Assembly: GCA_029582155.1 (NCBI GenBank)
Contig: CM055894.1
Span: 29,195,707 to 29,259,706 of the forward strand
Length of the DNA: 64,000 nt
Reading direction: 5' to 3'
Source of the DNA: Panopea generosa
Taxonomy: Eukaryota > Mollusca > Bivalvia > Adapedonta > Hiatellidae
Below are positions 21,745 to 64,000 of the stretch, piece after piece. Each line of letters opens with the position of its first letter. Within the stretch, counting starts at the first letter, position 1. The notes beneath the pieces were generated by a model. That model was not told where the DNA came from. It saw nothing but the letters and a program-made list of their open reading frames with translations, and made no database searches. Both the position numbers and the translations under genes were made by a program.

Positions 21745-23985
21745 ATATAATGTTTAAAGTTTGTTAAACAGAGTTCTTTTTTTTAAATTTATGGTTGAAG
21801 ATGATTTTTTTGTTATCAATAATAATTTATTCAACACTGGGTCAAACTCTTTGTTTCCAAATAGAATATCAGTAATTGACCAGTTTGTAATAATAGCACT
21901 GTTCTTTTCTTTGATATAGTCAACAAGACTAGACATACATTGTTTTGATGTTGCACAGTCTATAAATAGATGTTTATGGTTTCAATTTCTGCCTGACAGA
22001 ATGTACACATTTCTGAAACAACGATATTCATTTTCTTCAGGAGTGAGTTTGTACCCATTATTTTATTATTGATTCTATATTGAAATCATTGTAAATTCGT
22101 ATCTGTAGTGAAACTAAATGGTAGAGCATAATATTTTGACCATCTTAAATTAATTCTTATATCTAACTCCTCTTCCAACTTACATTTTGAAGAAGGTTCA
22201 CTATTTTCTGAAAAAAAAAAAGTTTTATATATTGCTCTACAACCTTTTTATCATTAACAATAGTCAAGACTGGAAGTGGACATATAGGGTTCTGGCAATT
22301 ACTGGCTAAGTGTTGACACTTAAATTTATTTATGTATTGTCTTGCTAATGCAATAAGCCATTCAAATTCAAGAAAACTTTGTATTGATATTATACTTGTT
22401 GATGAATTCTCTGATGGTATACAAATTGCCATTGCTGTTCATTAGGTCATTTATAACTCATATTCCTTTAGAAACCAATGATTATAAAAATGCTCGAGCC
22501 TCCGACCTGAAGATTAGGGTTGTACCAAATGTATGAACTTTGTAAACCAGACCATGTGGTAGGTTCGATGTTTGATGAAAATATTTTGTATGACATGAAA
22601 ATATCTTTCCAAAAAAGATTATGAATTCTATTGATGTGGTTGTTAATAAAATCTGAACCAAATGCGGTGAAGTTTAATATAAACGGATACATTGTTTTAA
22701 AAATATCCAAATATTTTTTGTCAGTTGTTAATAAACGTCTTATCCATGTCAGTTTTAGAGAGGAAATAAATAATTCTAAGTTAACCATTTTTAAACCTCC
22801 TTTCATGTACGACTGGCAAATTACCGAACGTTTGACTTTATCAGGTTTCCCTTTCCATAAAAAATTAAATTCTTTTATTTGATTATCTTTTGGATTCGGT
22901 AATGTTAAAATTAAATTATTTATTTTCGATATTGTCAGACTTTTTAAAACTGTATTTTTTCCTCTTGGGGTAAGGATTCTCTTTGACCAATTTATTAAAA
23001 GTTGTTTAATCTGTTGTATTTTATCTTCATAGTTTATGTGAACAATTTTATCTAAATCAACAGAAAAGTGTATTCCCAATACCGTAAACTCATTAACCCA
23101 AGATAGATTCAATGGTTCACATAATTTTACGTCACTTGTTTTCATTGAACGTATCCAAACTGCTTTTGTTTTTTCGACATTTACATTAAGGCCGGAGATC
23201 TCTGCATAAAATTTTAATACATTAAGGGTGTTTAATAAAGATTTCTCAGACTCATCCAACATGAGTGAAGTATCGTCAGCATATTGTGAAATAAAAAATT
23301 CTGTATTGGCAATTTTTATTCCTTTTATATCAGGGTTGATTCGAATCGGGACAACAAGGGTCTCTGCACATATGATGAAAATATACGGGGATAATGGATC
23401 ACCTTGTCTACAACCGCGTTGTGGATAAAACCACTCAGATAAATGCCCATTAACAATAACACATGATTCAACATTTGTATAAAATAACTGTTTCCATTTT
23501 TTAATTGAAGAGCCAAAATTGAAAAAGTCTAGAACTGAGAAAATGAAAGACCAACTAACAGAATCAAACGCTTTCTCAAAATCGATTAAAAGAAGCATTC
23601 CAGGTAAATGTTGTTTTCCAACATAAAACATAATGTCATACAATAATCTAATATTTTCACCTATATATCTGCCAGATAAAAAACCTGTTTGGTCTTCATT
23701 AATAATATGTGGTAAAACATGTTTTACCCTTTGTGCTTTACTTGCTGATGCCAGTTTGTATGACCCATTTAAAAGAGATATTGGACGCCATTTTTTAAAA
23801 GTTGTTTATCTTTATTTCCTTTTGATAAACATGTAATGACTCCTTGTCTTTGGGAAATGGACAGTTCACCTTTGATAATACCTTCGTTTATAGCACGAAT
23901 TAAGAAATTCCCTATATCATACCAGAAAAAACCTAAAAAACTCAACAGTAAAACCGTCTAGACCTGGACTTTTATTATTCTGCAT
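21745..23985 (-). pseudogene. L1/Tx1-like LINE ORF2 relic: reverse transcriptase to C-terminus
   Basis: From the 5' side it reads NKSPGLDGFTVEFF, SQRQGVITCLSKGNKDK, then after a frameshift near 23800 PISLLNGSYKLAS and EDQTGFLSGRYIGENIR. The long open frame 23643-22468 holds LLLIDFEKAFDSV (motif A), GCRQGDPLSPYIF (motif B) and QYADDTSL (motif C, catalytic Asp pair), then the thumb and KGGLKMVNLELF. The C-terminal continuation, in shifted frames, includes IREFINKYNINTKFLEFEW, RWSKYYALPFSFT, FQYRINNKIMGTNS and the CTFC block. This order is normal for the family. No endonuclease or ORF1 is seen on the 5' side, so it is a 5'-truncated dead copy with few lesions. Confidence 0.88.
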
Positions 23986-36188: not shown

Positions 36189-36473
36189 TTATATACACAG
36201 TGTGCAAGGCAGAGAAACAGCCTTGGAACAATCATCTTTAGTAACACTTGATACACATCCGGTAGGTTTCCTGGAATGGTCTAAGTTGTTGTTGCTGTAT
36301 GGACATGATTTGGCATAATGTCCATAGTTTCTGCATACAAAACACTGTCTTGATAGAGCCTTGCAATAGTGGTTATAAACAACATACTCACTACATCTCC
36401 GGCACCTCCTGGCTTTTAATTTCCGCTGTTGAATGCTAGGCACTCGCTTTTTGGGTATTTGAAAACAATCCAT
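36189..36473 (-). CDS. Small protein with a CCHC zinc knuckle
   Basis: 94 residues from ATG at 36473; the frame stays open back to a GTG at 36515. It is basic at the start (IPKKRVPSIQQRKLKARR), then CRRCSEYVVYNHYC and the knuckle CFVCRNYGHYAKSC, i.e. Cx2Cx4Hx4C, the nucleic-acid-binding motif of Gag/ORF1-type proteins and some cellular RNA-binding proteins. A further pair of cysteines ends the protein. It could be a small gene, one exon, or a remnant of a retroelement ORF1. No transposon neighbours on this strand were identified. The coding sense is supported by the intact motif; the function is not. Confidence 0.5.
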   Translation of the reverse strand: MDCFQIPKKRVPSIQQRKLKARRCRRCSEYVVYNHYCKALSRQCFVCRNYGHYAKSCPYSNNNLDHSRKPTGCVSSVTKDDCSKAVSLPCTLCI

Positions 36474-36515
36474 TTTGTGAGAGGGAACCGGAAGCACGAT
36501 ACCTTGATTCTCCAC

Positions 36516-38600
36516 CAGTTATTACGTAACGATTATGAACGGGGAACGATTCGTCGTTAACGTAACGTGCGTGGGCGGACGTACCGATGCGTTGAGCGTT
36601 GTTTATTGATGAATGAGTAAATTTTTGTAGATGAAGTTGAAGATACTAAATCAATATAATATCGTTTAAGTTCACAGACAGCAAATACGAAGATACTTAT
36701 CAATTTATATCAGTTTTAATTGTTTCAAAAGTCACACAGTTTATAATAAAATAGTTCCAAGGAAATAGATATAATAAAAATCACAGTATTGCATCTAAGT
36801 TGTTATACCATTCACTAAAATCACACTATAAAAGCGGTGTCCATAACATAGGCTATTTACGAATAAACTTAGATAAAAACACTGTCCAAATATCGGATAA
36901 TATCCAAATATATATAAAGTTCAAAAAGTTAAATTAAATTTTACAAAGTACTGACGGCTTTCCAATCTGTCTGGTAAACTATCCAGACAGTAACTACGTC
37001 CTAAAAAGTTATTCTATTCATCCTCTATTAACTTCTTCCTTAAATACTAAAATTGTATTGTTTGCACATACATGGCTTTGGTATGGTTTAGATACCTAAT
37101 CAAGAAAGGAAACATAAACGCAAACAAGATATACTGGACAATACATGGTAAAACTATTATGCACACCAAAATCAAAACGTTTTCACACCTTCAATTGCTG
37201 TAATCAATTAGGCTTCAACAGTATATACATGAAATGAAAGTTTGAAATATTTTCACATAATACTTGATTAATAATCAGTTTAAGCTAATACGTTTTTACA
37301 ATACTAATTAAGATATTATGAACTTGGCATTGAGCAGGTTTAACAAGAATTGACATGTTGCATTTGAAGATAAAATGTAATAAAATATTTATAAATAAAC
37401 TAAAAAGTTGCAAAAGATATTTTCATAAATTTAAAATCACTCCATAATATTCACGTTACACTAACTTGTCTTTCGTGTTTTCCCTGCAGATCATCATAGT
37501 TTGTGTATGCATTTTGTTTTATTATTTCATAAAAAAACAAATATAACGTTACCAGAAATGTTGTGTTTTATAAATCTCGAAAAGTTTGAAATCCGAATCT
37601 CCAACTTGGGCAGTTGATTGAGAACAAGACATGCATCATTCGATGGGCTTGATAAATACATCACTCAAAATGTAAATAGGGTAATACATAAAAAAGTGTC
37701 AATTTGTCCCAAGAATGATTCGTTTTAATTATGTATAGTTTTAAACTGCCAGCGGACGTCTCACTAAACACGACTATTGCTGTTTGGATGAAAGTACCGA
37801 GATATTGTTTTGCTTCAGTGTCAAATCTAACTTTCACCCACTTAGTCCGTTACGTTACGTCAGCTTTCCTTTTTGATGATCTAGTATTATATGCCAAACA
37901 GCCTCCGTGCGAGACCCGAAGTGTAAATGGCAGTAGGCATAATATTTTACTATTCTACAATGTTAAAACTATCAACATTGAATCTGTGACATTGAAATAA
38001 GGATCAACACGCCTGTCATCACAAAGCTGTGACATTTTAAAAATTAGAAATTTATATAAACGGATAAATGCGTATTCTGGCATTACCAAAACTTAGCAGT
38101 AAAAGTGACTACATTTATTTATGCTGGTTGTGATTTGATGTGGTAGTTGTATCAGTTATTAACATATATTAAAAAAGCCCCAATGGCTGAGAAATGAAAT
38201 TAAATTGCTTTTAAACTGAAAGAAAAAGTCATATTCAAATGTTTAATTTGATCGCATTTTTCTAATAATACTTGAAAAAATCCCCCCGAATGTAAAAAAA
38301 AATATACTTCATAGCAAAAAATAAATTTCGGAAGGTTCATCGAGATACTGTTCAAACTTTTATAAATAGCATAGAGCGAGAAATTGATTATGCGGCTAAA
38401 AATGGACAATAACGCATTTTGGAAGCGTAAATCAAACAAGAAATCTACTCCTATATTTAAGATGAATTTTAAGGGGGAATCATGCGACAACCCTTAATAT
38501 ATTGATACTGGCTGGAAAACCTATTTCTCTGAACTGTATTGCCCACCAGTTAATGGCCCCTTGGACAGTGACAATTTGTTAAGAAGCAAAGAAGTGTAAT
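36516..38600. other. Intergenic region
   Basis: AT-rich. An 89-codon ATG frame at 37731-38000 and a 96-codon minus frame at 38200-38490 have no recognisable family. No RNA gene or transposon signature found. Confidence 0.35.
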
Positions 38601-39009: not shown

Positions 39010-39161
39010 TCCATGGTGTGTGGGTCGTGGTCGGCACCAGATTTGTTGGTTTGGCGGAGGCCTTGATGTTGTGTCTATGGTTTGCATTGTGGCTGGGCGC
39101 ACTCGCTGTGGTCTGGTTCTGTGCATTTGTATCTTGGTTGTTCACAGGTGGTTATCTCCAT
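39010..39161 (+). repeat. Direct repeat copy 2 (G-rich version)
   Basis: Partner of the copy at 38601, 409-410 bp away. It sits in a G/T-rich stretch (about 38870-39165) whose ORFs (114 and 77 codons) have no family resemblance and are probably by-products of composition. Confidence 0.85.
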
Positions 39162-46918: not shown

Positions 46919-47084
46919 CTATGTCTGCATTTTAATTCCAACCCTCATATATATTGTCATGGAACAGTATTACTCAAAACGCACAGAGTAAGAGTTACGC
47001 ATTACTCTTGATGATGAGCATATATCTTATTTATATAGTACCATATACTATTCTGGAAGATGCTTTTCCTCAAATGGTTCCTTC

Positions 47085-47308
47085 GTGGCCCAATGGTCTA
47101 AGGCGCCGTCTCTAGATCACAACCTCTCACCGCTAAGGTCGTAGGTTCCAGTATCACTCGCTCTTAAAACTGTATGTTCGAATATTTGCCAGTTACTTGC
47201 GGAAAGACGTTGGTTTTACTCAGTCTGATTCAGACTGAGGTTACCTCTACCAGTAAAACCTGATATGCCATATATAACCTAAAATGTGTTGAACATGGCA
47301 TTAAACCT
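47085..47308 (+). mobile_element. tRNA-derived SINE (family B)
   Basis: A-box-like TGGCCCAATGGTCTAAGGCG and B-box-like GTAGGTTCCAGTATC head, then GCCAGTTACTTGCGGAA and CAGTAAAACCTGATATG shared with the copy at 31789. It carries a small internal tandem (TCAGTCTGATTCAGACTGA, itself an imperfect inverted repeat). It lies ~570 bp upstream of the Ig exon. No clear target duplication. Confidence 0.75.
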
Positions 47309-47875
47309 ATTATCTTCATATATAGCATAGAACAAGCACAATTTTCAGTAGATAGTTTATTCACCAATAAAAATAATTCCAGAAAATTGACATACTTACT
47401 CAAATCTACAAAAGAACAAGTAATCTCTGTCGGCACCATATATATATGACAACAGTCGTTGTTACCAAAACTACAAATATATAACACACTTTGAGACATA
47501 TTGAAACAAATTATAATTATATTTCAATATAACTGCGTTTGACAAATACGTCTGTGGAAATAGGACATCCTACCATTAATCTATAACATATTAGTTCTAC
47601 TTTTAACATTTATACTTTTATTATGCAGATGTAATATACACATGATTAGCTTCTGTAAATGTTAATGTTTGATAGGCAGCATTACTCATTATGCTTTCAT
47701 GCTCATATTTATTAAATAGAATTACATCGTTACATTTTAAATCTCAATATTGATTGTTTTTGTCATTTCACTCCGAACGTCAAACTGTTTTCACCTGTTA
47801 GGAAGTTCCGAATCAATCAATATTTGCATAAATGCATGATGTAGTTAAGTTTTGATAGCTCTTGGTTCATTTCAG
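47309..47875. other. Spacer or intron before the Ig exon
   Basis: No exon-like sequence recognised; ends in TTCATTTCAG, the acceptor of the next exon. It is probably intronic because the Ig exon starts in phase 1. Confidence 0.4.
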
Positions 47876-48172
47876 GTTCTCCGCGCTTGTCTGAAGGTAT
47901 TCGTACCAATATCACTAGTGCCCAACACGAGGCAGCAAGTGTTAGTGTGACTATTGTAGCTTATCCAGAGCCATCCATCTATGTATGGGCCAAGTTGACT
48001 GGATCTGCATGGACCAGTCTGACTTCTAACAGAAACGTGCAGATATCACCCCGCGGTCTACAGTCTAACTTCACCATTCTTGATGTAAAACAGACAGACT
48101 ATGGTCAGTATAGGTTGACAGTAACCAATACTGTCAGTGAGTTTCAACAACTCGTCTATATTACAGCACAAG
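47876..48172 (+). CDS. Receptor gene, exon encoding an Ig-like domain
   Basis: 297 bp, phase 1 at both ends (TTTCAG acceptor, GTAATA donor), the standard layout of extracellular domain exons. The product, about 98 residues, has the I-set skeleton: VSVTIVAYPEPSIYVWAK with the core Trp, FTILDVKQTDYGQYRLTVTN with the DxGxY tyrosine corner, and final beta strand QQLVYITAQ. Both disulphide cysteines are absent: the B strand has Val/Ile and the F strand has YRL in place of YxC. N-glycosylation sequons NIT and NFT are present. It is likely the membrane-proximal Ig domain of an adhesion- or immune-type receptor; earlier exons are not identified. Confidence 0.8.
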
Positions 48173-48800
48173 GTAATACTGGTTTTACGTTGATAAAATT
48201 AAGCATATTCAGGATGATTGTTGTCGTGGGCGTTTTTTTTAAAATACTTCATTGGGGTTATTTATAGCTGAATAAGTGCGCATTAAGCACGAAAACATTA
48301 TTTTATTTTATATTAAAGAATACATTATTTCATAGTTATGTTCGGAAGAATTCAACTTGATATTGGTCAAATTGTTCAGTAAAAGTTTAATTGTATAAAT
48401 TCAGACAACCAATGCCTCTTTACAAAAAATTAAAAGCCGAATATGACACCTGGAGTTCACACAAATATGACGTTATCGTTTGCGGCATGATTAATTCCGA
48501 CCTAATCGTACTTTCAACTGTTTTACCTTTCTTTTCTTGTTTAAATAGCATGGGTCTCAGCAGTTGCCCCATACCAACAATTCTATATACGATTATTCAA
48601 CACATACTGATAAGCTTTGTAAAACAATGATTGAATTATATACATAATCCATCAGACATTGATTATAACGAACCTGCTTAATATACCGCCTTACTAACTG
48701 TTCAGTTTGAAGAGATACTGCACATGCAACGACTATTTTTAATATATATTGATATTGCACTATCCTAAATCAAGGTATTTCTAAACATTTTTATTGACAG
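48173..48800 (+). other. Intron between Ig and FN3 exons
   Basis: 628 bp from GTAATA to TTATTGACAG. AT-rich; a 79-codon frame inside (48391-48630) has no family resemblance. Confidence 0.6.
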
Positions 48801-49091
48801 ACAAACCCGATGCATCGACAGATTTTAAACATATTCCAGAGTCTGTCTCTGAAACATCAGTTGTTATAAAATGGACTCCCGGGTTTGATGGCGGTCTCCA
48901 ACAAACGCTCTACGTATACTATAGACCAGTTTCTACAACAATGTGGACCATTGCAACTCCAACTTATGGATCAAAGTCAACGAACGCTACTTTGACAGGC
49001 CTAAATGCAGGGTCAACATATGAAGTCCAAGTTTATGCCATCAATGCTATCGGAAGTAGTTCTTCAGTGATCATTACATTTTCTACTCATG
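48801..49091 (+). CDS. Receptor gene, exon encoding a fibronectin type III domain
   Basis: 291 bp, phase 1 to phase 1 (acceptor GACAG, donor GTAAAT). About 97 residues with FN3 hallmarks: SVVIKWTPGFDGGLQQTLYV (W after strand B and the G-G turn), VYYRPVS, LTGLNAGSTYEVQVYAIN (strand E leucine and the YxVxVxAxN strand F), and a final GSSSSVIITFST. A sequon NAT is present. Ig followed by FN3 and a single membrane helix is the common plan of invertebrate cell-surface receptors of the Ig superfamily. Confidence 0.85.
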
Positions 49092-49428
49092 GTAAATTTT
49101 AAATCATTGAAGTATTACTTTAACCTGTGCCGCCATAATTCGCTATTTTACTTTAAATGCATGTTTATGCATACATACCTGATGGAGATGTTTTATTGTT
49201 CAGATGTAGGTAAGAGATATTTTAGCTCTACCTGTATACTGTATTATATGCATGTAATAGTAATGCTTATATTGCTATTAACGTTGGAAAGATCCGTTTT
49301 AAGCTTTAAGTTAACACGTTTCTGGAAATACTGTTACTTATATCATTAAGTTAATTTTATTTTATTTAGTGATTCATATTTAAGAGTGTTTAGTTCCACG
49401 CAAACGTAATGCACATTTATAATAACAG
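49092..49428 (+). other. Intron between FN3 and membrane exons
   Basis: 337 bp from GTAAAT to AATAACAG; no feature inside. Confidence 0.6.
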
Positions 49429-49578
49429 AGTCAACCAACCCGACAGAGAACGGATTGTCAGCCGGGGTTATTGGTGGAATTACAGGAAGTCTGGTTGCTG
49501 TTGTATTGGTTATACTGGCTGTCGTTCTTGTAAGGAGATACAAACTGAAGATTTATTGTGAATTTGAAAAGGACGATG
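49429..49578 (+). CDS. Receptor gene, transmembrane exon
   Basis: 150 bp, phase 1 to phase 1 (AACAG acceptor, GTATGT donor). The product has a short stalk STNPTENGLS, the membrane helix AGVIGGITGSLVAVVLVILA continuing VVLV, then the stop-transfer RRYK and the start of the tail KIYCEFEKDD. The helix has no charged residue and includes a GxxxG-type pair. It therefore does not look like a receptor that relies on a charged membrane adaptor, which fits a signalling motif in its own tail. Confidence 0.85.
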
Positions 49579-52126
49579 GTATGTTAACACAACCTATACA
49601 CCTTACACATGTTCTATTCAAGTGTTTACATAATTGGTTTTGGCTGCTGTTTTAAGGTAATTAAAGGAATAAATACAAAATATCCTGTCTTTATATAGGT
49701 GACTTTCACGTGTGTGTTAATATAACCTCACACCAAACGGTTTCTGACAGAAGTAGATGAAAACGTTGTCTGATAATGGAACCGCAGACATAGCCCTTAA
49801 ATAATAATAATTACCTTTAACAAAAGTCCTATTGTTTCAAAGAAGCACTTCACCTACTTTTTCTGGACATCTGTTTTTAGTTTTTTTTCTACAATGTTCT
49901 TTAATGTAATCACATATATGCAGTGGTGTTATACTTTTATAACTGGATAGGCAAAGTTTACAATTTTATGGAACAATTGAATAAATAATTATTTTGGTTC
50001 ATCATGTGTCTCAATATTACCTACATGTACAGCAATCCATGGTTATTCATAATTTATACAGTGTAATGGAAAACATTACGATTATTTGTCAATTCAACCA
50101 AAATACTGAATTGATTGTGTTTTCATTGCAACAATCAATCACTGTACATAAAAAGATGTGATTAATAGGAATTTAAGTGATTGTCTTCTCATATTTAATA
50201 AAGCAGCAGTGGTCGAATGATAGAGCGTCCGCCTCGCAGGCAGAAGGTCGTGGATTCGATCCCGGCCCTGTCTTACCAAGTATTTGAAAAATGATACTTG
50301 CAGATTCCCTGCTGCTTATTGTCAGCATTTATAGAGTAGCTGTAGGTCTTGTCGGCCTGGTGTCAGTATAATATGATTGGATAGAGTATCATACCATATG
50401 TCTTCCCCATGATACTCAAGTAGACACCGTCGCGATATGACTGAAAAATGTTAAAATCGATGCTAATCACCATACAACAACAACCACGGCCAACAACAAC
50501 CTCCCATATTGAATACAATATAATTACAACATGTCGGTTATCGACTCATTATATGTTTATTCCATGTATATGTTCATGTCTCATTATCATAACATTCATA
50601 TATTTTACTTTTCATGTGTTGACATATTTTTAGTTAATCAGACGGCCATGCTGCTATGCGGTAAGTTTGTATTTACTTTATCATTTAACTGTAGTATTGT
50701 AGTTGTAATAATACCTGGGAACCAGAAACTCGTGGCTTCTGTATTTGCCGATCAGAGTACTTTTCCAATATATTGCCTTATTGGGTAATGAAATACGTTT
50801 TAGCAGGGACGTTTTGCAAGTGAAAATGAAAAACATTTCTTAGTTTTAAAATGTCTATATGAACATACACACCCATAATGATGTTGCTCCAAATTAAACT
50901 ATTGTTGCCAATTTTAATAGCCATCCTTTCACTTAAGTCCCAATATAAAAAAACTATCTGATCTGCATTTGTCCGTCATATTTTCCTACGTCCGTCCGTC
51001 ATTTTCGTTTACTTACAAAAACTAATCTCATTAGCTTTGTTAAATGTTCCTGTTTTCAGGTTTGATCCCGTCTAACATGTTGACATTTGGCTTCATAATA
51101 AATTTCTTTAAAGAAGTTCAATTAAAAAATCCGAGCTTCATTGAAAAAAGATCTGAATTGTCTAGACATATCGATAGCCCTTTTTTTAAAAAAAAAAATA
51201 AATTTCCAAGACGTCGTCAGTGGTCTTGAAAGGTGTGAAAATGTGAATTGTCATTTTTTTCAGAATCCAATTTGTTTTGATAAGCTAGTAGTTATAGTTA
51301 ATTCGATGCTATGATATGTGATTACTGATTGATACATCAATTAAGAAAGATTTTTTACCTGTCAGCGCCTGCGGACATTTTGGGCAACTTGTTTTCTGTG
51401 CTCCCCGAATAAATACTCGTGAGCGTATCATTATATTTTCCGCTTCAGAACTTTTCTTTCCTGCATGTTTGTCCGAGGCATGACTTTAAATTGTAAATCA
51501 TTTAGAATTGTATAATTTTTTAAACGCCAAAGAGTCGTGTTTCAGCATATTAGTATAACTCTGCGGTTGCTCAAGGTTTAACTTAAGAATAACCTCCCAC
51601 ACATGACGGTAGCAAGATTCTCATGCTCAAGAAGCCGAGTAAATGTTGTTGTAAAAAAAATGCACAAAATGTCATATTATGTTGTGCATATGGAAAAATT
51701 GGAACATTTTAATGATTTATGCCAAGTTTGGATGACACTGGGAACTGCTTGATAAATCAATTACAGTTTAAAGATGCGTAGTGATACACTGCAACAAATG
51801 AGCAGAATTGTCAAAAATGAAGTGGTGCCATCAAACCATCGAAGTTGTGAAAAAAACACCTGGTCAACCCCATGCATTTTTCTGCATAATTGGACCAATA
51901 GAGGACTATCTATGGGAACAAGGCACTTTAAGAACGATTAATAATGTATCAAGTGTTACAGAAGTGCATGACTCTATGTGTAGAACAGCACAAAATTAAT
52001 TGTTGTGTGAGACGTTTAATCGTGCCTAATCTTGTGAGAAGCGACCGTTAATCATATTCTAAAGAGATCAATGATCGGAGGAATCGTTTTGTGGAAAACG
52101 ATAACAAATCATTTAGAAAACAAAGT
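49579..52126 (+). other. First part of the large intron before the satellite
   Basis: AT-rich, holding one SINE (50203-50480). A 27-bp segment 50635-50661 with AG and GTAAGT edges would keep phase 1 but encodes nothing recognisable. A frame after TTTTCAG at 51060 ends at TGA 51227-51229. Phase arithmetic requires one more exon (length 3n+1) between 49578 and 58952; I could not identify it. Confidence 0.5.
50203..50480 (+). mobile_element. tRNA-derived SINE (family A) in the receptor intron
   Basis: Head with A box GTGGTCGAATGATAGAGCG, the anticodon-like CCGCCTCGCAGG and B box GGATTCGATCCC. Body with GGTGTCAGTATAATATG and CATGATACTCAAG, and end TGCTAATCACC plus (AAC)n tail. The head is better preserved than in the copy at 15768. 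Confidence 0.8.
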
Positions 52127-52310
52127 TTAACCGTGTACAAAGGGAAAACTGATATCAACCAGAATTACCATATGGTAAGCATATACAAAGTATGTTGGAA
52201 ATAAAGTCTGATCGCGTGGTAATTGTTTACCACATTTTAAACAAATATATATACTGTTGAAAACAAGACAAATGATGGTGTAAACAAAATCTTCTCGTGT
52301 CGTAAGCGAA

Positions 52311-54715
52311 TACATACAGTATTAAATATAAAGAATGACAACGCCTACTTAAAACTGTTGAAAGCACAGACATAATGGTGAAAACAAGGTCAACTCCTGT
52401 CGTAAGCGAATACTTATAGTATTGAATATAAAGATTGATAACGACTTATTAATATTGTTGAAAGCACAGATAATCATGGTGTTAACAAGGTCTATTCGTG
52501 TCGTCAGCGAATACTAGTAGTATTGAACAAAAAGACATATCGACTACTTAATATTGCTGATGGCACAGCTTATCATGTTATTAACAAGGTCTACTCGTGT
52601 CGTAAGCGAATCCATATAGTATTAAAAATTAATACTGATAGCGACTACTTATCACATTGTAAACAAATATTGATACTGTTGAAAACATGACTTATCATGG
52701 TGTAAACAAGGTCTACTCGTGTCGTAAGCGAATACCAATAGTATTGAATATAAAAATTGATAGCGACTATTTAATACTGTTGAAAACACGACTAATCATG
52801 GTTTAAACAAGGTCTACTAGTGTCATCACCGAATACTAATAGTATTGAATATAAATATGATAACGATTATATAATATTGTGGAAAACACATCTAATCATT
52901 GTGTAAACATGCTCTACTGCTGTCGTAAGCTAATCTTAATAGTATTGAAAAATAAAGAGTGATAACGACTACTTAATATTGTTGAAATCATAGCTATTCA
53001 TTGTATAAACATGATCTACTCACGTCTCAAGCGAATACTTAAAGTATTAAAAATAAATATTGATAACGCATACTTAATACTTTTGAAAGCACAGCTAATC
53101 ATGTTGTAACAAGGTCTACTCGTGTCGTTAGCCAATACTTATAGTATTGGAAATAAAGACTGATATCGGCTACTTAATATTGTTGAAAGCAAATCTAATC
53201 ATGGTGTAAGAATGTCTATTCGTGTCGTTAGCGAATGATTATAGTCTTGGAAATTAAGACTGATATCGATTACTTAATGTTGTTGAAAGCACAGCTAATC
53301 ATGGTGTAACGAGGTCTAATCGTGTTGTAAGCGAATACTTATAGTATTGGAATAAGACGGATATCGACTAATTGATATTGTTAAAAGTACAGTTAAGCAT
53401 GATGTAAGAAGGTCTACTCGTTTGGTAAGCAAATACTTATAGTATTGGAAATAACGACTGATATATACTACTTATTTCTGTTGAAAGCACATCTAATCAT
53501 GGTGTAACAAGGTCTACTCGTGTCGTTAGCGAAAAATTATAGTATTTGAAATAACGACTGATATCGACTACTTAATACTCTTTAAAGCACATCTAATCAT
53601 AGCGTAACAAGGTCTATAAGTGTCGTTAGCGAAAACTAATAGTATTGAAAATAGGACTGATAGCGACTTCTTAATACTGTTGAAAACACGACTAAGCATT
53701 AAATAAACAAGGTCTACTCGTGTCGTAAGCGAAATAAATAATATTGAAAATAAAGACTGATAACGACTACTTAATATTGTTGAATGTACAGTTAATCATG
53801 GTGTAAACAAGGTCTATTAGTGTAGTAAGCGAATACTTATAGTATTGAATATAAAGACTGATAACGACCACTTAATAATGTTGAATGTACAGCTAATCAT
53901 GGTGTAAACAAGGTCTATTAGTGTAGTAAGCAAATACTTATAGTATTGAATATAAAGACTGATAACGACCACTTAATAATGTTGAATGTACAGCTAATCA
54001 TGGTGTAAACAAGTTCTATTAATGTAGTAAGCGAATACTTATAGTATTGGATATAAAGCCTGATAACGACCCCTTAATAATGTTGAAAACACAGCTAATA
54101 ATGATGTAAACAAGGTATTCTCGTGAAGTAAGTGAATTCTTATAGTATTGAAAATAAAGACTGCTCTTGTCTTCTCGTGTCGTTAGCGAAAAATTATAGA
54201 ATTGGAAATAACGACTGATATTAACTTCTTAATACTTTTGAAAGCACAACTAATCATGGTTTAACAAGGTCTATGCATGTCGTAAGCGAATACCTATAAT
54301 ATTGAATATAAAGACCGATAATGACCACTTAATAATGTTAAAAAACACAGCTAATCATGGTGTAAACAAGGTCTGCTCGTGTAGTAAGTGAATACTAATA
54401 GTATTGAACATAAAGACTGATATCGACTGCTTAATATTGTTAAAAGTACATCTTAAAGTGGTGTAAACAAGGTATACTCGTGTCGTCAGCGAATACTTAT
54501 AGTATTGAACATAAAGACTGATATCGACTGCTTAATATTGCTGATAGCACAGCTAATCATGTTGTTAACAAGGTATACTCATGTAGTAAGCGAATCCTTA
54601 TAGTATTAAATTAAAGACTGATAGCGACTACTTATCAAATTGTAAACAAATATTAATACTGTCGAAAGCACGACTTATCATGGTGTTAACAAGGTCTACT
54701 CGTGTCGTAAGCGAA
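52311..54715. repeat. Higher-order repeat unit A, 2405 bp
   Basis: About 24 monomers that recur in the same order and with the same private variants in the next 2405 bp, including a truncated monomer at TAAAGACTGCTCTTGTCTTC (54163). Confidence 0.9.
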
Positions 54716-57120
54716 TACATACAGTATTAAATATAAAGAATGATAACGCCTACTTAAAACTGTTGAAAGCACAGACATAATGGTGAAAACAAGGTCAACT
54801 CCTGTCGTAAGCGAATACTTATAGTATTGAATATAAAGATTGATAACGACTTATTAATATTGTTGAAAGCACAGATAATCATGGTGTAAACAAGGTCTAT
54901 TCGTGTCGTCAGCGAATACTAGTAGTATTGAACAAAAAGACATATCGACTACTTAATATTGCTGATGGCACAGCTTATCATGTTATTAACAAGGTCTACT
55001 CGTGTCGTAAGCGAATCCATATAGTATTAAAAATTAATACTGATAGCGACTACTTATCACATTGTAAACAAATATTGATACTGTTGAAAACATGACTTAT
55101 CATGGTGTAAACAAGGTCTACTCGTGTCGTAAGCGAATACCAATAGTATTGAATATAAAAATTGATAGCGACTATTTAATACTGTTGAAAACACGACTAA
55201 TCATGGTGTAAACAAGGTCTACTAGTGTCATCACCGAATACTAATAGTATTGAATATAAATATGATAACGATTACATAATATTGTGAAAAACACATCTAA
55301 TCATTGTGTAAACATGCTCTACTGCTGTCGTAAGCTAATCTTAATAGTATTGAAAACTAAAGAGTGATAACGACTACTTAATATTGTTGAAATCATAGCT
55401 ATTCATTGTATAAACATGATCTACTCGCGTCTCAAGCGAATACTTAAAGTATTGAAAATAAATATTGATAACACCTACTTAATACTTTTGAAAGCACAGC
55501 TAATCATGTTGTAACAAGGTCTACTCGTGTCGTTAGCCAATACTTATAGTATTGGAAATAAAGACTGATATCGGCTACTTAATATTGTTGAAAGCAAATC
55601 TAATCATAGTGTAAGAATGTCTATTCGTGTCGTTAGCGAATGATTATAGTCTTGGAAATTAAGACTGATATCGATTACTTAATGTTGTTGAAAGCACAGC
55701 TAATCATGGTGTAACGAGGTCTAATCGTGTTGTAACCGAATACTTATAGTATTGGAATAAGACGGATATCGACTAATTGATATTGTTGAAAGTACAGTTA
55801 AGCATGGTGTAAAAAGGTCTACTCGTTTGGTAAGCAAATACTTATAGTATTGGAAATAACGACTGATATATACTACTTATTTCTGTTGAAAGCACATCTA
55901 ATCATGGTGTAACAAGGTCTACTCGTGTCGTTAGCGAAAAATTATAGTATTTGAAATAACGACTGATATCGACTACTTAATACTCTTTAAAGCACATCTA
56001 ATCATAGTGTAACAAGGTCTATAAGTGTCGTTAGCGAAAACTAATAGTATTGAAAATAGGACTGATAGCGACTACTTAATACTGTTGAAAACACGACTAA
56101 GCATTAAATAAACAAGGTCTACTCGTGTCGTAAGCGAAATAAATAATATTGAAAATAAAGACTGATAACGACTACTTAATATTGTTGAATGTACATTTAA
56201 TCATGGTGTAAACAAGGTCTATTAGTGTAGTAAGCGAATACTTATAGTATTGAATATAAAGACTGATAACGACCACTTAATAATGTTGAATGTACAGCTA
56301 ATCATGGTGTAAACAAGGTCTATTAGTGTAGTAATCAAATACTTATAGTATTGAATATAAAGACTGATAAGGACCACTTAATAATGTTGAATGTACAGCT
56401 AATCATGGTGTAAACAAGTTCTATTAATGTAGTAAGCGAATACTTATAGTATTGGATATAAAGCCTGATAACGACCCCTTAATAATGTTGAAAACACAGC
56501 TAATAATGATGTAAACAAGGTATTCTCGTGAAGTAAGTGAATTCTTATAGTATTGAAAATAAAGACTGCTCTTGTCTTCTCGTGTCGTTAGCGAAAAATT
56601 ATAGAATTGGAAATAACGACTGATATTAACTTCTTAATACTTTTGAAAGCACAACTAATCATGGTTTAACAAGGTCTATACATGTCGTAAGCGAATACTT
56701 ATAATATTGAATATAAAGACCGATAGTGACCACTTAATAATGTTAAAAAACACAGCTAATCATGGTGTAAACAAGGTCTGCTCGTGTAGTAAGTGAATAC
56801 TAATAGTATTGAACATAAAGACTGATATCGACTGCTTAATATTGTTAAAAGTACATCTTAAAGTGGTGTAAACAAGGTATACTCGTGTCGTCAGCGAATA
56901 CTTATAGTATTGAACATAAAGACTGATATCGACTGCTTAATATTGCTGATAGCACAGCTAATCATGTTGTTAACAAGGTATACTCATGTAGTAAGCGAAT
57001 CCTTATAGTATTAAATTAAAGACTGATAGCGACTACTTATCAAATTGTAAACAAATATTAATACTGTCGAAAGCACGACTTATCATGGTGTAAACAAGGT
57101 CTACTCGTGTCGTTAGCGAA
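54716..57120. repeat. Higher-order repeat unit B, 2405 bp
   Basis: Second copy of unit A, directly adjoining it. In the parts compared by eye the two differ about once in 60-100 bases, so the duplication is much younger than the monomers. After 57120 the array continues with unrelated monomer variants. Confidence 0.9.
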
Positions 57121-58951
57121 TACCAATAGTATTGAATGTAAAGACTGGTAGCAACAACTTAATACTGTTGAAAACACGACTAGTCATGGTGTAAACAAGG
57201 TCTACTCATCTCATCAGCGAATACGTATAGTATTGAATATAAAGACTGATAACGATTACATAATATTGTTGAAAACACATCTAATCATTGTGTAAACAAG
57301 GTCTACTACTGTCGTAAGCGAATAATAATAGTATTGAATATAAAGACTGATAAACATTATGTAATATTGTTGTACACACATCTAATCATAATGTAGCAAG
57401 ATATACTGGTGCTGCAAGCGAATATGTACAGTATTGAAAATAAAGACTGACAACGCGTACAAAATACTGCTGAAAACATATCTAATCATGGTGTAAACAA
57501 GATCTACTCGAGTCGTAGGCGAATATTTATAGTATTGAAAATAAAGACTGGACTGATAACGACTACTTAATAATGTTGAAAACACAACTACATGTAACCC
57601 TGGTGTAACAAGGTCTACTCGTGTCGTAAGCGAATACTTATAGTATTGAATATAAAGACTGATAACGACTTCTTAATAATGTTGAAAACACAGCTAATAA
57701 TTGTGTAAACAAGGTCTATTCGTGTAGTAAGTGAATACTAATAGCATTGAAAAAAAAGACTGATGATAACGACTATTTAATATTGTTGAAAGCACCGATA
57801 ATCATGGTGTTAACCAAGTCTGCTCTTGCCATCAGCGAATACTAATGGTATTGAATATGAAGACTGACAACGACTTCTTAATACTGTTGAAAGTACATAT
57901 AATCATGGCGGAAACAAGTTCTACTATTGTTGTAAGTGAATACTAATAGTATTGAAAGTAAAGACTGATAACGACTACTTAATATTATTGAAAGCACCAA
58001 TAATCATGGTGCAAACAAGGTCTACTCTAAATACTTGTAATCAGCGAATACTAATGGTACTGAATACAAAGACTGACAACGACTACTTAATACTGTTAAA
58101 AGTACAGATAATCATGGCGGAAACAAGTTCTACTAGTGTTGTAAGTGAATACTAGTAGTATTGAAAGTAAAGACTGATAACGACTACTTAATATTGTTGA
58201 AAGCACCAATAATCATGGTGTAAACAAGGTCTACCCTTGTCATCAACGAATACTAATGGTATTGAATACAATAACTGACAACGACTACTTAATACTGTTG
58301 AAAACACAGCTTATCATAGTGAAAACAAGGTCTACTCGTGTCATAAGTATATACTAATAGTATTAAATATAAAGACTGATAGCTACTAATTAATACTGTT
58401 GACAACATAGCCAATCATGGAGTGAACAAGGTCTGCTCGTGTCATAAGGAAATACTAATAGTATTGAATATAAAGACTGATAACGACTACTTAATACTGT
58501 TGAAAACACAACTAATCATGGTTTAAACAAGGTTTAATCTTGTCGTAAGCGAGCACTAATAGTATTGAATATAACGACTGATAACGACTACATAATACTG
58601 TTGAAAGCACAGTTAATGATAGTGTAAACAGAGACTACTCGTGTCGTAAGCGAATACTAATATGATTGAAAATACACGACTAACCGTGTTGCAAGTGAGT
58701 ATAAACATGAATGAAACAAAGACTTTTAAAATATACTGTTGTATATGCATATTAATTGTGTTGGTAATACTGTGTGGTACATATAAGCCCATACTAAAAC
58801 AACGAAGAGTAAGCATGTGATAAGCGTATAATCATTATGTTTGAATAAAACCATTAGTAAGGTTAACAGAAATCTAGCATGTAAAGAAATGCTACACATT
58901 ATATAAATATTGACTATGCGATATATTTATTAATCATGTCCCACGTTTCAG

Positions 58952-58992
58952 TGACACTGGTAAAGACGAAACGGAACAAGATGCACAGACAG
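58952..58992 (+). CDS. Receptor gene, small cytoplasmic exon
   Basis: 41 bp between CACGTTTCAG and GTAAAA. In the frame required by the following exons it encodes DTGKDETEQDAQT, a hydrophilic acidic linker, with phase 2 in and phase 1 out. Phase 2 does not match the phase-1 end of the membrane exon, so an intermediate exon is expected. Confidence is limited by the small size. Confidence 0.55.
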
Positions 58993-59216
58993 GTAAAACA
59001 ATTCATATTATTTGAGATATTAAAAAATTAACTACGGATAAATGCATAGAATTGGACTGGTATTTATGTTTTAGCATTGTCACGTGATCAATGTTATATG
59101 ATAAACCGTATTTAAAAGATATTGTTTATGTATATGTATAATTTGCGTTTAGCTCATTTATTTTTGCATCACCTGATTTTTCTGTACTTTTAATTATAAT
59201 GATATATTTATTACAG
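58993..59216 (+). other. Intron between small tail exons
   Basis: 224 bp from GTAAAA to TTACAG; nothing inside. Confidence 0.5.
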
Positions 59217-59250
59217 AGTCAGTGTCTTACTACAATACAGTAGATGTAAC
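59217..59250 (+). CDS. Receptor gene, small tail exon with SYYNTV
   Basis: 34 bp between TTATTACAG and GTAAGT. Phase 1 in, phase 2 out. Encodes ESVSYYNTVDV plus two bases of the next Thr codon. SYYNTV fits the ITIM-type pattern SxYxxV, and the double tyrosine followed by Asn also gives a YxN (Grb2-type SH2) site. Confidence 0.65.
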
Positions 59251-60214
59251 GTAAGTATATGCATTTCACATTAAATTATTAGAAATACTGAGTTTAAAGT
59301 TATTTCTATTTTATTTCTGTTTAAATGAACAGCATTTTATTACCAGTAGCATGTGTTAATGAACATTTTAAAGCGATTTTATTTGACAGAGACACGCCTT
59401 TTTTGGGAATGAATAATGATGTTTGCATATTCATATTCATAATCTGCTACTTTCAAACATATTGTGTTCTTCAATATACATATATGATTGTTCTTTCTAT
59501 GTTTATAACTTTAATATAATGTACACGTCATTTATAATTGATATACTTTGAGCTAATGGGAAATATTTTACATTAATATTAACTAAATATGAAACTTGAA
59601 ATTCCGTTAGACTTAAAAAGTAGGCTTTTCTTATGTTGTCTGATCTTCAAAGCATAAAATAAAATAAATAAATCTTATAACAATGGTACCTAACAAAAGA
59701 GAAATGAATTATTTTATCCTCTTGACCGTCGATGTACACCTTAGACTAATACACAAAAATGTGTTTAAATCATAATTCCAATAATAAATAGCTCTTTAGT
59801 AAATATAGATACACAAACAAGTTTTTATCTAAATATTAAAAATATTTATTTTGTTCAGAGGTCACGCCGCAGTGTTATATATATTTCTACTTGGATTCAC
59901 ACATTAAATCTACATATGATGATACAATACCATGTATACATTAGAACTTTTGTACATGTATACTCATCTATATATAACGTCAATCTATATTTGCTATCAG
60001 TATCATATTTTGTAATAAAAGTAACAATTGAGACTGCGGTGTGCCTGTTTAATATTAATATAAACATAACTATATACACAATATAGGTACGGTTTGTTGA
60101 AGGGTGGCCCACCCCGACCATTGCAAACCCATTACGGGTCAAATATATGGATTATTATTAAGAGATTGAACACTTAAAATTTTTTTTTAAATATACTTTT
60201 CGTTATCTTCCCAG
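59251..60214 (+). other. Intron between tail exons
   Basis: 964 bp from GTAAGT to TTCCCAG. AT-rich, without recognised elements; ORFs inside have no family resemblance. Confidence 0.5.
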
Positions 60215-60288
60215 TGAGCCACCGTCCCAGTACACATCGTTGCAGTTTAGTCCAACAACCGATGCCTACGACAGTTTACAAAATATAG
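60215..60288 (+). CDS. Receptor gene, tail exon carrying an ITAM-like motif
   Basis: 74 bp between CTTCCCAG and GTATTG. Phase 2 in (completing the Thr codon of the previous exon), phase 1 out. Encodes EPPSQYTSLQFSPTTDAYDS followed by LQNI. YTSL and YDSL are separated by exactly eight residues, which satisfies the ITAM consensus YxxL/I-x6-12-YxxL/I, and the whole motif lies in one exon, as ITAMs can. The first half also reads SQYTSL, an ITIM-compatible pattern. Known ITAMs bind the tandem SH2 domains of Syk-family kinases; for this protein that is inference. Confidence 0.7.
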
Positions 60289-60810
60289 GTATTGTATATT
60301 GTTCACAGTCGCAATATCAGCGAAACATCAACGAATTGAAACCTCGCAAAAATGGACATTATTCGAGATGTGCCTAGTCTGTAAAACAATATAATTTTTG
60401 TATTTAAACTATTAACGCAATAGTGATTATTTTCTATATATATTTGTGTACGTATATGTATATACAAGTCCACAGAGCCTCTGTTAGTATGTTATTTTAT
60501 TAGTATTTACATGAAAGGAATTCTCACCAATGGTATTCAAATGGTGTTGCAATAAATGAATTCATGTTACAGGAGCTTAATAGAAAAAAACTCATGATAG
60601 GAAACACGTTTTTTTTAAAAGAATGATTCAACCACGAAGCTGATTATACTTTAATGATGATTTTAAAAGTTATTTTAGATCGTTTTAAATATACGTCAGC
60701 TTTACGACGGAGTGTCGTTATAATTATATCAAATCACATTAAAGAAAATACATTGCAAGCACTAGAATAGACCTTTAAAATAGTTCATTTACCCTTTTTA
60801 CTTTTTTCAG
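60289..60810 (+). other. Last intron of the receptor gene
   Basis: 522 bp from GTATTG to CTTTTTTCAG; nothing inside. Confidence 0.55.
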
Positions 60811-60866
60811 AATTGCAAGAAACACAGCCCACGAAAACGAAATACGAAAATTTGAAAATTAACTGA
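60811..60866 (+). CDS. Receptor gene, terminal coding exon
   Basis: 56 bp from the acceptor to TGA (60864-60866), phase 1 in as required. Encodes ELQETQPTKTKYENLKIN and stop. TKYENL adds a fourth tyrosine module (YxxL, also YxN), 18 residues after the last ITAM tyrosine. The three terminal exons keep one open frame across three introns with good splice sites, which supports the model. Confidence 0.7.
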
Positions 60867-61442
60867 TGACATACTCTGATACATGTTAAGTAGTTAGTGG
60901 TACATGTATTTAAATGGTGAACCATACAGGCGATTAAAAGACAGTACTCAAATGAAGTGTAGTGCGAGAGACAGTATACTTATTTATTGCCTAATGATAT
61001 CAATCTCCCTTGGTGACCTTCTTCAGTAACCTCTGGCAATGTCTGAATTGTTGTAAGATTCTCGCAATATTTAATAGCTCGTACATCGGAAAAATAATTC
61101 AAGGTTATTTCATCCTATTCCAATATAATTAAATTTTGTATTTTATTTACATAATTTCTTTAAACATTGTTCTATTTACTTCCGTGCAAAACAGTATAAC
61201 GCATATAATCTACTTAAAATATATTTCAGCAAATATGGACGCTGAATGGTGATTTGGATGAAAATAAAGTTGGACTACTATGTCATGATTTTTATGTATG
61301 GGTAAATTAGATATTGCAAGAATCTTACAAAAGTTAAGATGTAGACAGCCGTTAATGGCACGTTTTTAATGGACAATGAGAGAAAACGTAATGCTATATA
61401 TTCAGATGTTTCTGCGTGTTCCAGAAGTCCAGCATGTTACTT
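60867..61442 (+). other. 3' UTR and flank of the receptor gene
   Basis: A canonical AATAAA lies at 61263-61268. An ATATTTCAG acceptor-like site at 61221-61229 could give an alternative 3' exon. No other feature. Confidence 0.4.
61263..61268 (+). terminator. Candidate polyadenylation signal of the receptor gene
   Basis: AATAAA about 400 bp after the stop codon; first canonical hexamer seen downstream. Confidence 0.35.
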
Positions 61443-61782
61443 AGTAAACACATTTATACACTTATCATTATATATACGTGACAGAACATTAAACTATATT
61501 CGACTATGCACATGTGAATTATACCAATATACATGACATTGCAATATAGTCAAAGTAAACACATTTATACACTTATCATTATATATACGTGACAGAACAT
61601 TAAACTATATTCGACTAATGCACATGTGAATTATACCAACATACATGACATTGCAATATAGTCAAAGTAAACACATTTATACACTTATATATACGTGACA
61701 GAACATTGAACTATAATCGACTAATGCACATGCGAATTATAACAACATACATGACATTGCAATATAGTCAAAAGTAAACATT
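61443..61782. repeat. Three tandem units of ~111 bp
   Basis: AGTAAACACATTTATACACT starts units at 61443, 61554 and 61666, and a partial fourth begins at 61772. Units share ATATACGTGACAGAACATT and CATGACATTGCAATATAGTC. Highly similar, so recent. Confidence 0.9.
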
Positions 61783-63597
61783 TTTAACAATATGATTCTA
61801 CATGAGAAAGTGACATAGTTGATGTTTGTGTTTTTAATAAAAAGAGATGTGTACTTATTATACTCATTGTCTAAAGTGATATTCGTATTTAACTTGTACC
61901 TCACATATACAATTGCTTATTGAAATGAACGTTAATACAAATATACTGTATATAAGATTATGTTTAATGATTTGAAATCAGTGACAAATATATACACAGA
62001 TATACAGCAATGAGGGCAATTTTACCCTGTAACACAATAGTCAGTGCTCATTTACTTTCCCAGTTTCAGTTCGTTTTTATTTCTTTCTCTCTATTATACT
62101 ATATTATATTGTACATGTAATTAACTAAAATGAGCATTATTTAATAAGAATGTTATTATATATGTTTAATTCAAACACAGGTGACTAATATAGGTAGCTC
62201 ATGTAACCTGACGCAAATAACATTGACAGTGTATTTGTGTACATAAATGACAACGGGATATGTTTAAATTAATTCAATTCGGATTTCGTATACAGTTTTC
62301 AATTATTCACCCACTCGAGTGTGCGTGCAGTATCCAATGTGCATATTATAGCTTACCAGTATGTAATGATACTATTATATTTAATGCCGTACCAGATAGC
62401 GCCAGTAATACATGACGATAAATTCGTAACTGCAGTTAGGTATATTTATGATGGTTTGATCAGATAGGTAAATACAAGCCAGGCCAGGAAGAATGTAGAG
62501 TATCCAAATGCCCAACTACAAATATTGACAGTCACGCTATCAGCGCAGAATTAAAAATAAAGTAATAAATCTGTACAGCCGTAACTTATGTGGGTATAGG
62601 CGATAAAAATAATGTTGAATGACAAGAACACCAATGCGAAAAAATATGTTGTTCAAAATATAATCACGTGCTGTTCGTATGAATACAACTATTAGTGTTG
62701 TATTTGTATCGGTATATCTGAGTAATAATTCCAAATTATATGTACAATTGCTGGCGAATACAGATTGTTATAAAATAATGGAGATGAAGACGATTTAATA
62801 AATAATACTATTATAATAACCACCAATCCTGTTGTATACTACTATATTATGATTCAACCTTCTACTTTCTTTTAATAGTTCCTATAGTACCTAAAGTATG
62901 TACTTTTGTTCATTTTTAACGCTTTGCATATCTCTTAAAATGTAACCAAAAAAGGTATGTATTAAACTGCTGTGTTGCCTTTTACTGCTGTTGGTTTTTT
63001 TATATTTGTTGTTGTCTTCGTCGTCATTGTTGTTGTTTCAGATGCTTTATTATTGAATACATTTTGCTTATATGCATATTGACATGTAATAACAAACACA
63101 AATTTAAATGTGTTCGGTTAATAACTCGGCATATGTTGAAAAACACCCGTCCAATTGACAACATGTATCAAACCTACATTCACAGATAACGTACAGAATA
63201 AAATTGTAATAGTTATTGATAGTGGGTCATTTCGTGAAAAAAAAGTGCTATTATTTTAGAAAGACACACAACTTAGAACAAGGTTAACTAACTATTTCAA
63301 CACCGAGACCAACATTCAAATTGACAGAAAATCCAAGATGGCTGCCAAAATGGTCGTCAAATTAGACAAAATCGATATTGTTTTTATATTTACAGTAGTT
63401 AATGATATTTGATAGCTCTTTACAAATAATGTTATTCAAACACATTTATATTTGTTTGTTGTAATGCTTTTATTGCAAACGAATAATTTAAAATATAAGA
63501 ATAAGCAAAACATAGGCTTAAATTCTTAAAAATAATAACAATTTCTATAAATTGAATATTCTATTGTAATTTCCTCTTTTGCATAAATATTTAAAAA
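61783..63597. other. Intergenic region
   Basis: AT-rich, without recognised gene or transposon. A CCAAGATGGCTGCCAAAATGG stretch near 63331 echoes the motif cluster at 29.3 kb. Confidence 0.35.
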
Positions 63598-63845
63598 AAT
63601 ATAACAGTTACACACTCACGGAGATGAACGACCCGGACGTACGTATCCTGGCGATTAGACGTTACGCGTGGACGTCCTGACCGAGGCTGGTCTCTGGTGG
63701 TCCCAAACTGTTGGTACCGTCTCCACAAGGCGTTTACAGTATTTCTGTGCACACCAAATTGTTTGGCAACGTCAGTATGACGTACACCAGCTTCAATCAT
63801 GCCTACGGCGCGGCATCTGTCAGTTTCATTATGCTGGTTTTGTGT
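63598..63845 (-). pseudogene. Tc1-type transposase, N-terminal fragment
   Basis: Reads from the right: CRAVGMIEAGVRHTDVAKQF, GVHRNTVNALWRRYQQFG, TTRDQPRSGRPRV, then VRVVHLRE. This is the paired-like helix-turn-helix DNA-binding region and the GRPR (AT-hook-like) linker of Tc1/mariner transposases of the Tc1 branch. The sequence stops being transposase-like at about 63612 and the catalytic DDE part is absent, so the copy is truncated. The start codon region and terminal repeat to the right were not resolved. Confidence 0.85.
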
Positions 63846-64000
63846 CTTACAGGTATTAACACTATGCTTTTACACAGGTTTAGGCGACAAACGTGCTTGC
63901 GATTGACTGCTGGCCGAAAAAAATGTGAAAACGAAGACGTTGGCCAGACAGACAAACTACCCGTACAACTCATGCACTGACCATTGTAAATGACCGAGAG
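63846..64000. other. Right edge, possible Tc1 5' region
   Basis: Less AT-rich than the surroundings, in keeping with transposon sequence; no inverted terminal repeat identified before the window ends. Confidence 0.3.

Follow-up and report, generated by a model that had tools for sequence, protein, structure and literature searches.

An ITAM-type tail exon under selection in a predicted multigene family of Ig/FN3 receptors

The stretch of DNA analysed here (the window, 64,000 nucleotides; C1:29,195,707-29,259,706) lies within a 1.474-Gb genome of 39 contigs. On its forward strand, a 74-nt exon at 60215..60288 (phase 2 in, phase 1 out) encodes YTSL-x8-YDSL. Its 24 full codons read EPPSQYTSLQFSPTTDAYDSLQNI, and the ITAM proper (60231..60278, forward strand) spans residues Y284-L299 of the predicted protein. 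The exon is preceded by a pyrimidine-rich acceptor (TTCCCAG), followed by the donor GTATTG, and joined in phase to the last exon (60811..60866, forward strand), which yields ELQETQPTKTKYENLKIN and a stop and carries YENL, a YxN site of the Grb2 type. A candidate ATTAAA polyadenylation signal at 60933..60938 on the same strand was identified by pattern match only. Splice sites were scored with a simple matrix. The acceptors of the ITAM exon and the last exon scored 4.4 and 5.6, above the 99th percentile (3.56) for AGs in the window; at -0.77 the donor of the ITAM exon was ordinary, falling in the range from the 75th to the 90th percentile. The fit of 60215-60288 to the ITAM form, proposed earlier from the letters of the window (the sequence-only reading), was confirmed, with sound splice sites on either side.

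Three predicted exons further upstream on the forward strand, all entered and left in phase 1, encode an ectodomain and a membrane helix. The first (47876..48172) is an I-set Ig exon that contains no cysteine, canonical or otherwise, corresponding to the third Ig of the full-length paralogues (Pfam E 4.3e-8, 33.6 bits against a cut-off of 23.7). The second (48801..49091) is a fibronectin type III exon (Pfam fn3 E 1.8e-12), and the third (49429..49578) carries the helix AGVIGGITGSLVAVVLVILAVVLV, followed by the stop-transfer sequence RRYKLK. With a mean hydropathy of 2.8 over 21 residues and RRYKLK next to it, this segment has the characteristics of a single-pass helix. That the helix is uncharged, as had been claimed, was borne out, suggesting that the receptor would need no ITAM adaptor chain. 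The placement of the ITAM-type motif within the receptor's own predicted chain, together with Ig, FN3 and helix, is likewise supported.

The membrane exon ends in phase 1 and therefore cannot be spliced straight to 60215; a direct join was rejected, as it reads VSHRPSTH... or SHRPSTH... and contains no ITAM. The best three-exon bridge, with all phases in agreement, consists of a predicted 19-nt micro-exon (50642..50660, phase 1 in, 2 out), a predicted exon encoding DTGKDETEQDAQT (58952..58992, phase 2 in, 1 out) and a predicted exon encoding SVSYYNTVDV (59217..59250, phase 1 in, 2 out), all on the forward strand and each retained by all seven close copies of the locus. The sequence-only reading had held that the phases agree with the exons on both sides. 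This is so downstream, to 60811-60866, whereas upstream it holds only by way of the three predicted exons and not directly from 49429-49578. The resulting tail of 89 residues would read RRYKLKIYCEFEKDDDGHAAMRDTGKDETEQDAQTESVSYYNTVDVTEPPSQYTSLQFSPTTDAYDSLQNIELQETQPTKTKYENLKIN; a comparison with solved structures gave no match for it at E up to 10. The 962 nt of exons in the window copy are open, and their splice sites are all intact.

Splice scores alone were dropped as support for the bridging exons, since 27% of 60 randomised introns equalled the chain. When a coding score was added, none of 100 randomised introns did so, this null being one without GC islands. If four exons were allowed, the best chain by coding score also took in 50244-50279, which seems to be part of a tRNA-derived repeat. 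Because of the missing GC islands and the inclusion of this segment, we preferred the paralogues over the coding-score null.

The motif itself required similar caution. An ITAM spacing of 6-8 residues is demanded by the strict rule and 6-12 by the loose one. YTSL and YDSL form a YxxL/I pair in one predicted tail, and their x8 spacing lies inside the strict rule. The pattern YxxL/I-x6-12-YxxL/I was matched 57 times in the window (six frames, ORFs of at least 20 amino acids), against an expectation of 35.2 +/- 5.8 from 60 order-1 random sequences; the raw match is therefore no evidence and was dropped as support. Within the 89-residue tail, a pair at x6-8 arose in 0.9% of shuffles, and three or more YxxL/I motifs in 1.4%. 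The regular series Yxx[LIV]-x8-Yxx[LIV]-x8-Yxx[LIV], formed by YNTV, YTSL and YDSL, arose in 2.5 per 100,000 shuffles, a figure for a pattern chosen post hoc.

The long intron that precedes the ITAM exon consists mostly of a satellite-like array with a unit of about 100 bp (52251-58674), in which an identical 82-amino-acid ORF occurs at 52442 and 54847, 2405 bp apart, a sign of recent duplication within the array. Just upstream of the ITAM exon, 60102-60200 belongs to a dispersed repeat found on many contigs, and just 3' of the gene a 106-bp tandem repeat is present in three copies matching at 94% (61443-61780). By eye, 50206-50280 and 47080-47160 have the look of tRNA-derived repeats, without an Rfam match; Rfam gave nothing at the gathering threshold over 47000-62000. 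Elsewhere in the window we noted reverse-transcriptase ORFs at 22468-23805 (reverse strand, RVT_1 at 3e-34) and 19511-19996 (forward strand, weak, 0.006), a transposase-like helix-turn-helix ORF at 63591-63869 (reverse strand, HTH_23 at 1e-7) and, at 36189-36518 (reverse strand), an ORF resembling a zinc knuckle at a level (0.003) that does not reach the Pfam cut-off.

A query of the genome with 301 nt around the ITAM exon gave 40 matches. Apart from the window copy (W) itself, seven copies with 89-96% identity were found, all on the same contig (A, B, C, D, E, F and G at 44.25, 44.42, 44.79, 45.21, 45.32, 46.84 and 48.48 Mb of C1). The other 32 matches cover only about the first hundred bases of the query, which are dispersed repeat. 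All seven copies retain the five tail exons with their AG/GT sites, lengths and frame, and they settle the predicted exon model of the tail. The Ig exon (at 89-92% DNA identity), the FN3 exon and the whole membrane exon are each present in six of the seven; copy F lacks the Ig and FN3 exons and has a partial membrane exon. G has YISL for YTSL and YNTL for YNTV, F has YYSL for YDSL, and YENL is identical in all eight copies, the window included. The last exon of G ends with the stop TAG. Its FN3 exon contains an in-frame TAA and has lost the acceptor (CAA), so that G resembles a pseudogene.

In six copies compared with the window (E left out), divergence was 2.0-5.4% in the tail exons and 3.8-14.7% in their introns, the gap being significant in three of the six. 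Among the close copies (G excluded throughout, F used for the tail only), pN/pS was 0.54 for the Ig exon, 0.92 for FN3, 0.54 for the membrane exon and 0.55 for the tail. As a test of motif conservation, the comparison within the eight close copies was set aside, the motif residues being no better kept than other tail positions (p = 0.30).

In full-length paralogues the order is Ig-Ig-Ig(no Cys)-FN3-helix-tail. Copies A, B, C, D and G possess the two leading Ig exons (Ig1 and Ig2), which contain cysteines and pass Pfam Ig_3 (1.1e-9 and 1.9e-9 in copy A). In the stretches fetched, E has Ig2 only, and F neither. Both are absent from the window copy, and a tblastn search of the window and the preceding 10 kb for Ig1 and Ig2 returned only matches with E above 6. 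Homology between window and A ends at window position 42762, which corresponds to 6124 in A, and leaves a gap of 0.8 kb to Ig2. Ig pattern matches further upstream in the window (two in one scan, eight in another) do not have the look of Ig, and an in-frame stop in copy D (45.21 Mb), close to where Ig2 begins, was discounted, as it lies before the apparent acceptor (judged from copy A). A scan of the window for a signal-peptide exon gave one weak and unconvincing candidate (39066-39147); of five copies put through the same scan, G (48.48 Mb) yielded one and the other four none. The Ig and FN3 domains of the proposed type I receptor are supported, but the term 'type I' was overstated for a copy that may be partial, with two Ig exons absent and no convincing signal-peptide exon found.

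Because two Ig exons of five close copies are absent from it, the window copy may be 5'-truncated, or its Ig exons may lie further off. That the family is real and this member truncated or dying is an explanation to which we give somewhat less than an even chance. The loss of Ig1 and Ig2, and of homology to A, would then mark decay, whereas the open exons and intact sites of this copy, and the chance that the absent exons lie further upstream, argue against it. This explanation is compatible with the reading we prefer for the family, in which the window copy may be a truncated member of a working family.

In order to look beyond the close copies, we searched the genome with the 25-residue peptide of the ITAM exon at E up to 10. 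All 22 matches lie on C1, namely the 8 close loci and 14 at 63-75% identity. Taken singly, 12 of the 14 distant ones exceed E 0.01, and being weak by score they rest on position and exon structure. Each of the 22 is preceded upstream by a match to FN3 or to the membrane exon on its own strand; for 11 of the 14 distant ones this is a membrane-exon match at a distance of 2.5-4.7 kb, and for the other three an FN3 match at 6.5-14.6 kb. The AG acceptor and the phase-2 start are kept in 14 of 14, and the last exon was found in 11 of them, as YQNL, YENL, YENV or YENI; it was looked for and not found in L044-L046. L044 also has an in-frame stop between the two YxxL motifs. Among viral contigs, five pattern matches were tried as relatives and none was confirmed.

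Both YxxL motifs are kept in 22 of 22 relatives (window included), and only six of the 25 columns (Q, Y, L, Y, L and I) are invariant. Four of these six are the Y/Y/L/L of the motif (p = 0.0012 if columns are exchangeable). Between lineages (W, L033, L035, L037 and L045 compared), pS of the ITAM exon was 0.65-0.97 and pN 0.14-0.36; the closer pair L035-L037 gave 0.29 and 0.02. High pS with low pN between lineages indicates that selection preserves the predicted exon, and we conclude from these alignments that it is under purifying selection with both YxxL motifs invariant. The sequence-only reading had offered conservation of the pair and its spacing in orthologues as a test. Run in the paralogues, it was passed by the pair throughout but only by half for the spacing, which is x8 in 10 of the 22 loci (window included) and x9 in 12; all 22 lie inside the loose ITAM rule, and the 12 with x9 fall outside the strict one.

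It is this conservation in 22 of 22 relatives that constitutes the decisive evidence for the predicted ITAM exon. If the motif were a chance match in non-coding DNA, the excess of raw pattern matches over expectation and the inability of splice scores to support the exon chain would cause no surprise, but 22 relatives, highly diverged at synonymous sites, retain the exon with its splice sites, frame and motif, and this contradicts the explanation, which we regard as almost certainly wrong.

The same alignments bear on what the tyrosines may do. The ITIM consensus is S/I/V/L-x-Y-x-x-I/V/L, and tandem ITIMs are usually further apart than x8-x9. SQYTSL and SYYNTV in the window have this form, the latter lying in the exon 59217-59250 with YNTV 12 residues before YTSL (SxYxxV, ITIM-like). 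We therefore considered an inhibitory or dual-mode receptor, in which these tyrosines would recruit SHP-type phosphatases, alone or when partly phosphorylated. In keeping with this explanation, 20 of the 22 copies have S two residues before the first tyrosine, and SYYNTV is found in six of the eight close copies, with SHYNTV in one and SYYNTL in one. In addition, the reference list of PMC11999971 includes titles that describe oyster IgIT receptors as inhibitory, and Draper-II replaces the ITAM by an ITIM through splicing (PMC4503800). On the other hand, YDSL (D at -2) and YENL (T at -2, K at -1) do not fit the ITIM form. Across the 22 loci the second tyrosine, with D, G-A or A (mostly D) and not S, I, V, L or T at -2, is as invariant as the first, and the x8-x9 pairing is the arrangement of an ITAM. 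We consider an inhibitory function unlikely.

Sorting signals for endocytosis have the consensus YxxPhi. YTSL, YDSL, YENL and YNTV could all serve as such signals for AP-2, which also keep Y and the residue at +3. Endocytic sorting would not require two copies at the nearly fixed distance that 22 of 22 loci show, and it would not call for a conserved YxN either; as an explanation of the tail we find it very unlikely.

An ITAM-type tail is the preferred reading of the exon, and the question arises what kind of receptor carries it. A search of the genome with the FN3 and membrane-helix protein gave 254 candidates, of which the best 150 were scored; 140 of these 150 lie on C1. Among the matches listed, 19 are to the membrane exon and 131 to FN3 (121 on C1), most with less than 50% identity, and those on C1 are grouped at about 1-5, 14-15, 25-36, 40-51, 80 and 99 Mb. 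The picture is that of an allorecognition complex in so far as a clustered multigene IgSF family with tyrosine motifs was found, in one assembly, with 22 ITAM loci on one contig. The proteins might instead be neural or tissue adhesion molecules, with tails signalling for adhesion. Chains of Ig and FN3 domains are typical of these, and when the joined ectodomain was compared with solved structures, titin, myosin-binding protein C and NCAM2 matched best. Such matches tell only the type of domain, however, and neural adhesion genes would not usually form so large and recent a multicopy family on a single contig, so that we judge adhesion to be quite improbable as the primary role.

Returning to the receptor family, six of the eight close loci (W, A, C, D, E and F) have an FN3 match on the opposite strand (42-47% identity) about 15-30 kb downstream. 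The match at C is partial, and there is none near B and G among the matches listed. Two of these partner regions, D and W, were read. In D, the partner has Ig exons (C2-set_2, 2.9e-12 and 1.1e-7), an FN3 exon (2e-15) and the helix GLVLGAFVGGIAVTVIVIAAIVIF. The partner of the window copy lies just past the window end (C1:29262100-29287900, L049-L051), on the opposite strand and tail-to-tail, and its alignment with D begins at the third Ig-like ORF; the first two Ig exons of the D partner were unmatched in the piece of W fetched. The predicted tail exon of the partner reads DTGTTTYESTISNNPKEHVYTDLQAHPQ in D and has YKST in W, and in both it is in phase with a last exon ending in MEMYENLKI and a stop. 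The tail of the window's partner would contain YKST-x9-YTDL, then YENL. It was rejected as a true ITAM, since the first motif has T at +3.

We tentatively propose that C1 holds a complex of paired activating and partner receptors resembling Botryllus fester and its co-receptors but arisen independently, with at least 22 ITAM Ig/FN3 loci among at least about 120 FN3 exons, many of the ITAM genes lying tail-to-tail with a partner carrying a degenerate motif (YxST-x9-YTDL, YENL). Taken as a whole, this proposal is possible but doubtful.

For the locus itself, we consider it probable that the window contains the membrane-proximal and cytoplasmic part of a single-chain ITAM receptor with Ig and FN3 domains, from a multigene family, that would signal as follows. 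A ligand would cluster the receptors, and a Src-family kinase would phosphorylate YTSL and YDSL. Once both tyrosines were phosphorylated, the pair might dock a kinase of the Syk or Shark type through its tandem SH2 domains, and YENL, 18 residues on, could become a Grb2 site feeding Ras/ERK, as does the tail-tyrosine motif of IgG beside the BCR ITAMs. The predicted exons and the multigene family are established at the level of genomic sequence; the Src, Syk and Grb2 steps we infer from named precedents.

As regards these precedents, the IgG tail-tyrosine motif works with Grb2 (PMC4263166). According to PMC5978004, Syk/Zap70 in invertebrates is confined to lineages that have CARD-CC and Bcl10, and molluscs belong to those with Bcl10. 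The sequence-only reading had treated ITAM-bearing Ig receptors as best known from vertebrates, which overstated the case, as receptors with an ITAM or hemITAM are on record in reviews for oyster, Hydractinia, Botryllus and Drosophila. We are dealing with a real, selected ITAM-type tail in a predicted multigene Ig/FN3 receptor family, and given these precedents its newness is moderate. No description of a large mollusc cluster of ITAM Ig/FN3 receptors was found in titles and abstract openings, a weak negative, as most subscription literature lies outside such a search; PMC9505182 mentions ITAMs only for lectins in general. What began as a motif match becomes a signalling tail under selection that is common to a large family on one chromosome. 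If the host is a mollusc or another lophotrochozoan, the family would offer a genetic system in which to ask whether one-chain ITAM receptors are older than the split chains of vertebrates, and whether invertebrate receptor clusters use activating and partner pairs.

A close counterpart by description is the oyster (Crassostrea gigas) Ig receptor CgIgIT2, which has a classic ITAM and is linked to ERK (PMC11999971). It is activating according to that review, yet inhibitory in titles that the review cites. Like the receptor predicted here, CgIgIT2 is a single chain with an Ig ectodomain, one membrane helix and an ITAM in its own tail. It is described with five Ig domains and no FN3, whereas the present family combines Ig (three in the paralogues) with FN3, is present in many copies on one contig and has an additional YxN. 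The oyster hemITAM lectins CgCLec-TM1 and CgCLec-HTM, which signal through Syk to ERK (PMC13027682), are also molluscan membrane receptors with a YxxL-type tail, but have a C-type lectin ectodomain and half an ITAM.

In Botryllus, FcoR is a multigene family of type I IgSF co-receptors, described in PMC12065747, where Hydractinia ITAM/ITIM genes are cited as well. As described, FcoR resembles the present family in being multigene and IgSF, with tyrosine motifs in the tails and each member beside a partner gene. It differs in having an ITIM, hemITAM or core motif and a sushi domain, as opposed to a full YxxL pair, and the fester partner is described without a known signalling motif, whereas the partner here itself has YxxL motifs. 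The Alr genes of Hydractinia are likewise clustered IgSF genes, some with ITAM or ITIM, by the descriptions in PMC11999971 and PMC12065747; they are cnidarian, and allorecognition has been shown there, while the family here is known from sequence.

Drosophila Draper-I is a single gene, in contrast to the multigene family found here. It is not known to be an Ig receptor. Both are invertebrate single-chain ITAM receptors, and in Draper a Src kinase is followed by a Syk-like kinase, its ITAM acting with Src42A and Shark (PMC4503800).

The ITAM chains of vertebrate BCR, TCR and Fc receptors share the YxxL pair with the tail described here, and IgG also has a nearby YxN site for Grb2. In vertebrates, recognition and ITAM are usually placed on separate chains joined by charged helices. 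Unlike in those systems, the receptor predicted here would combine both on one chain, with a helix that carries no charge.
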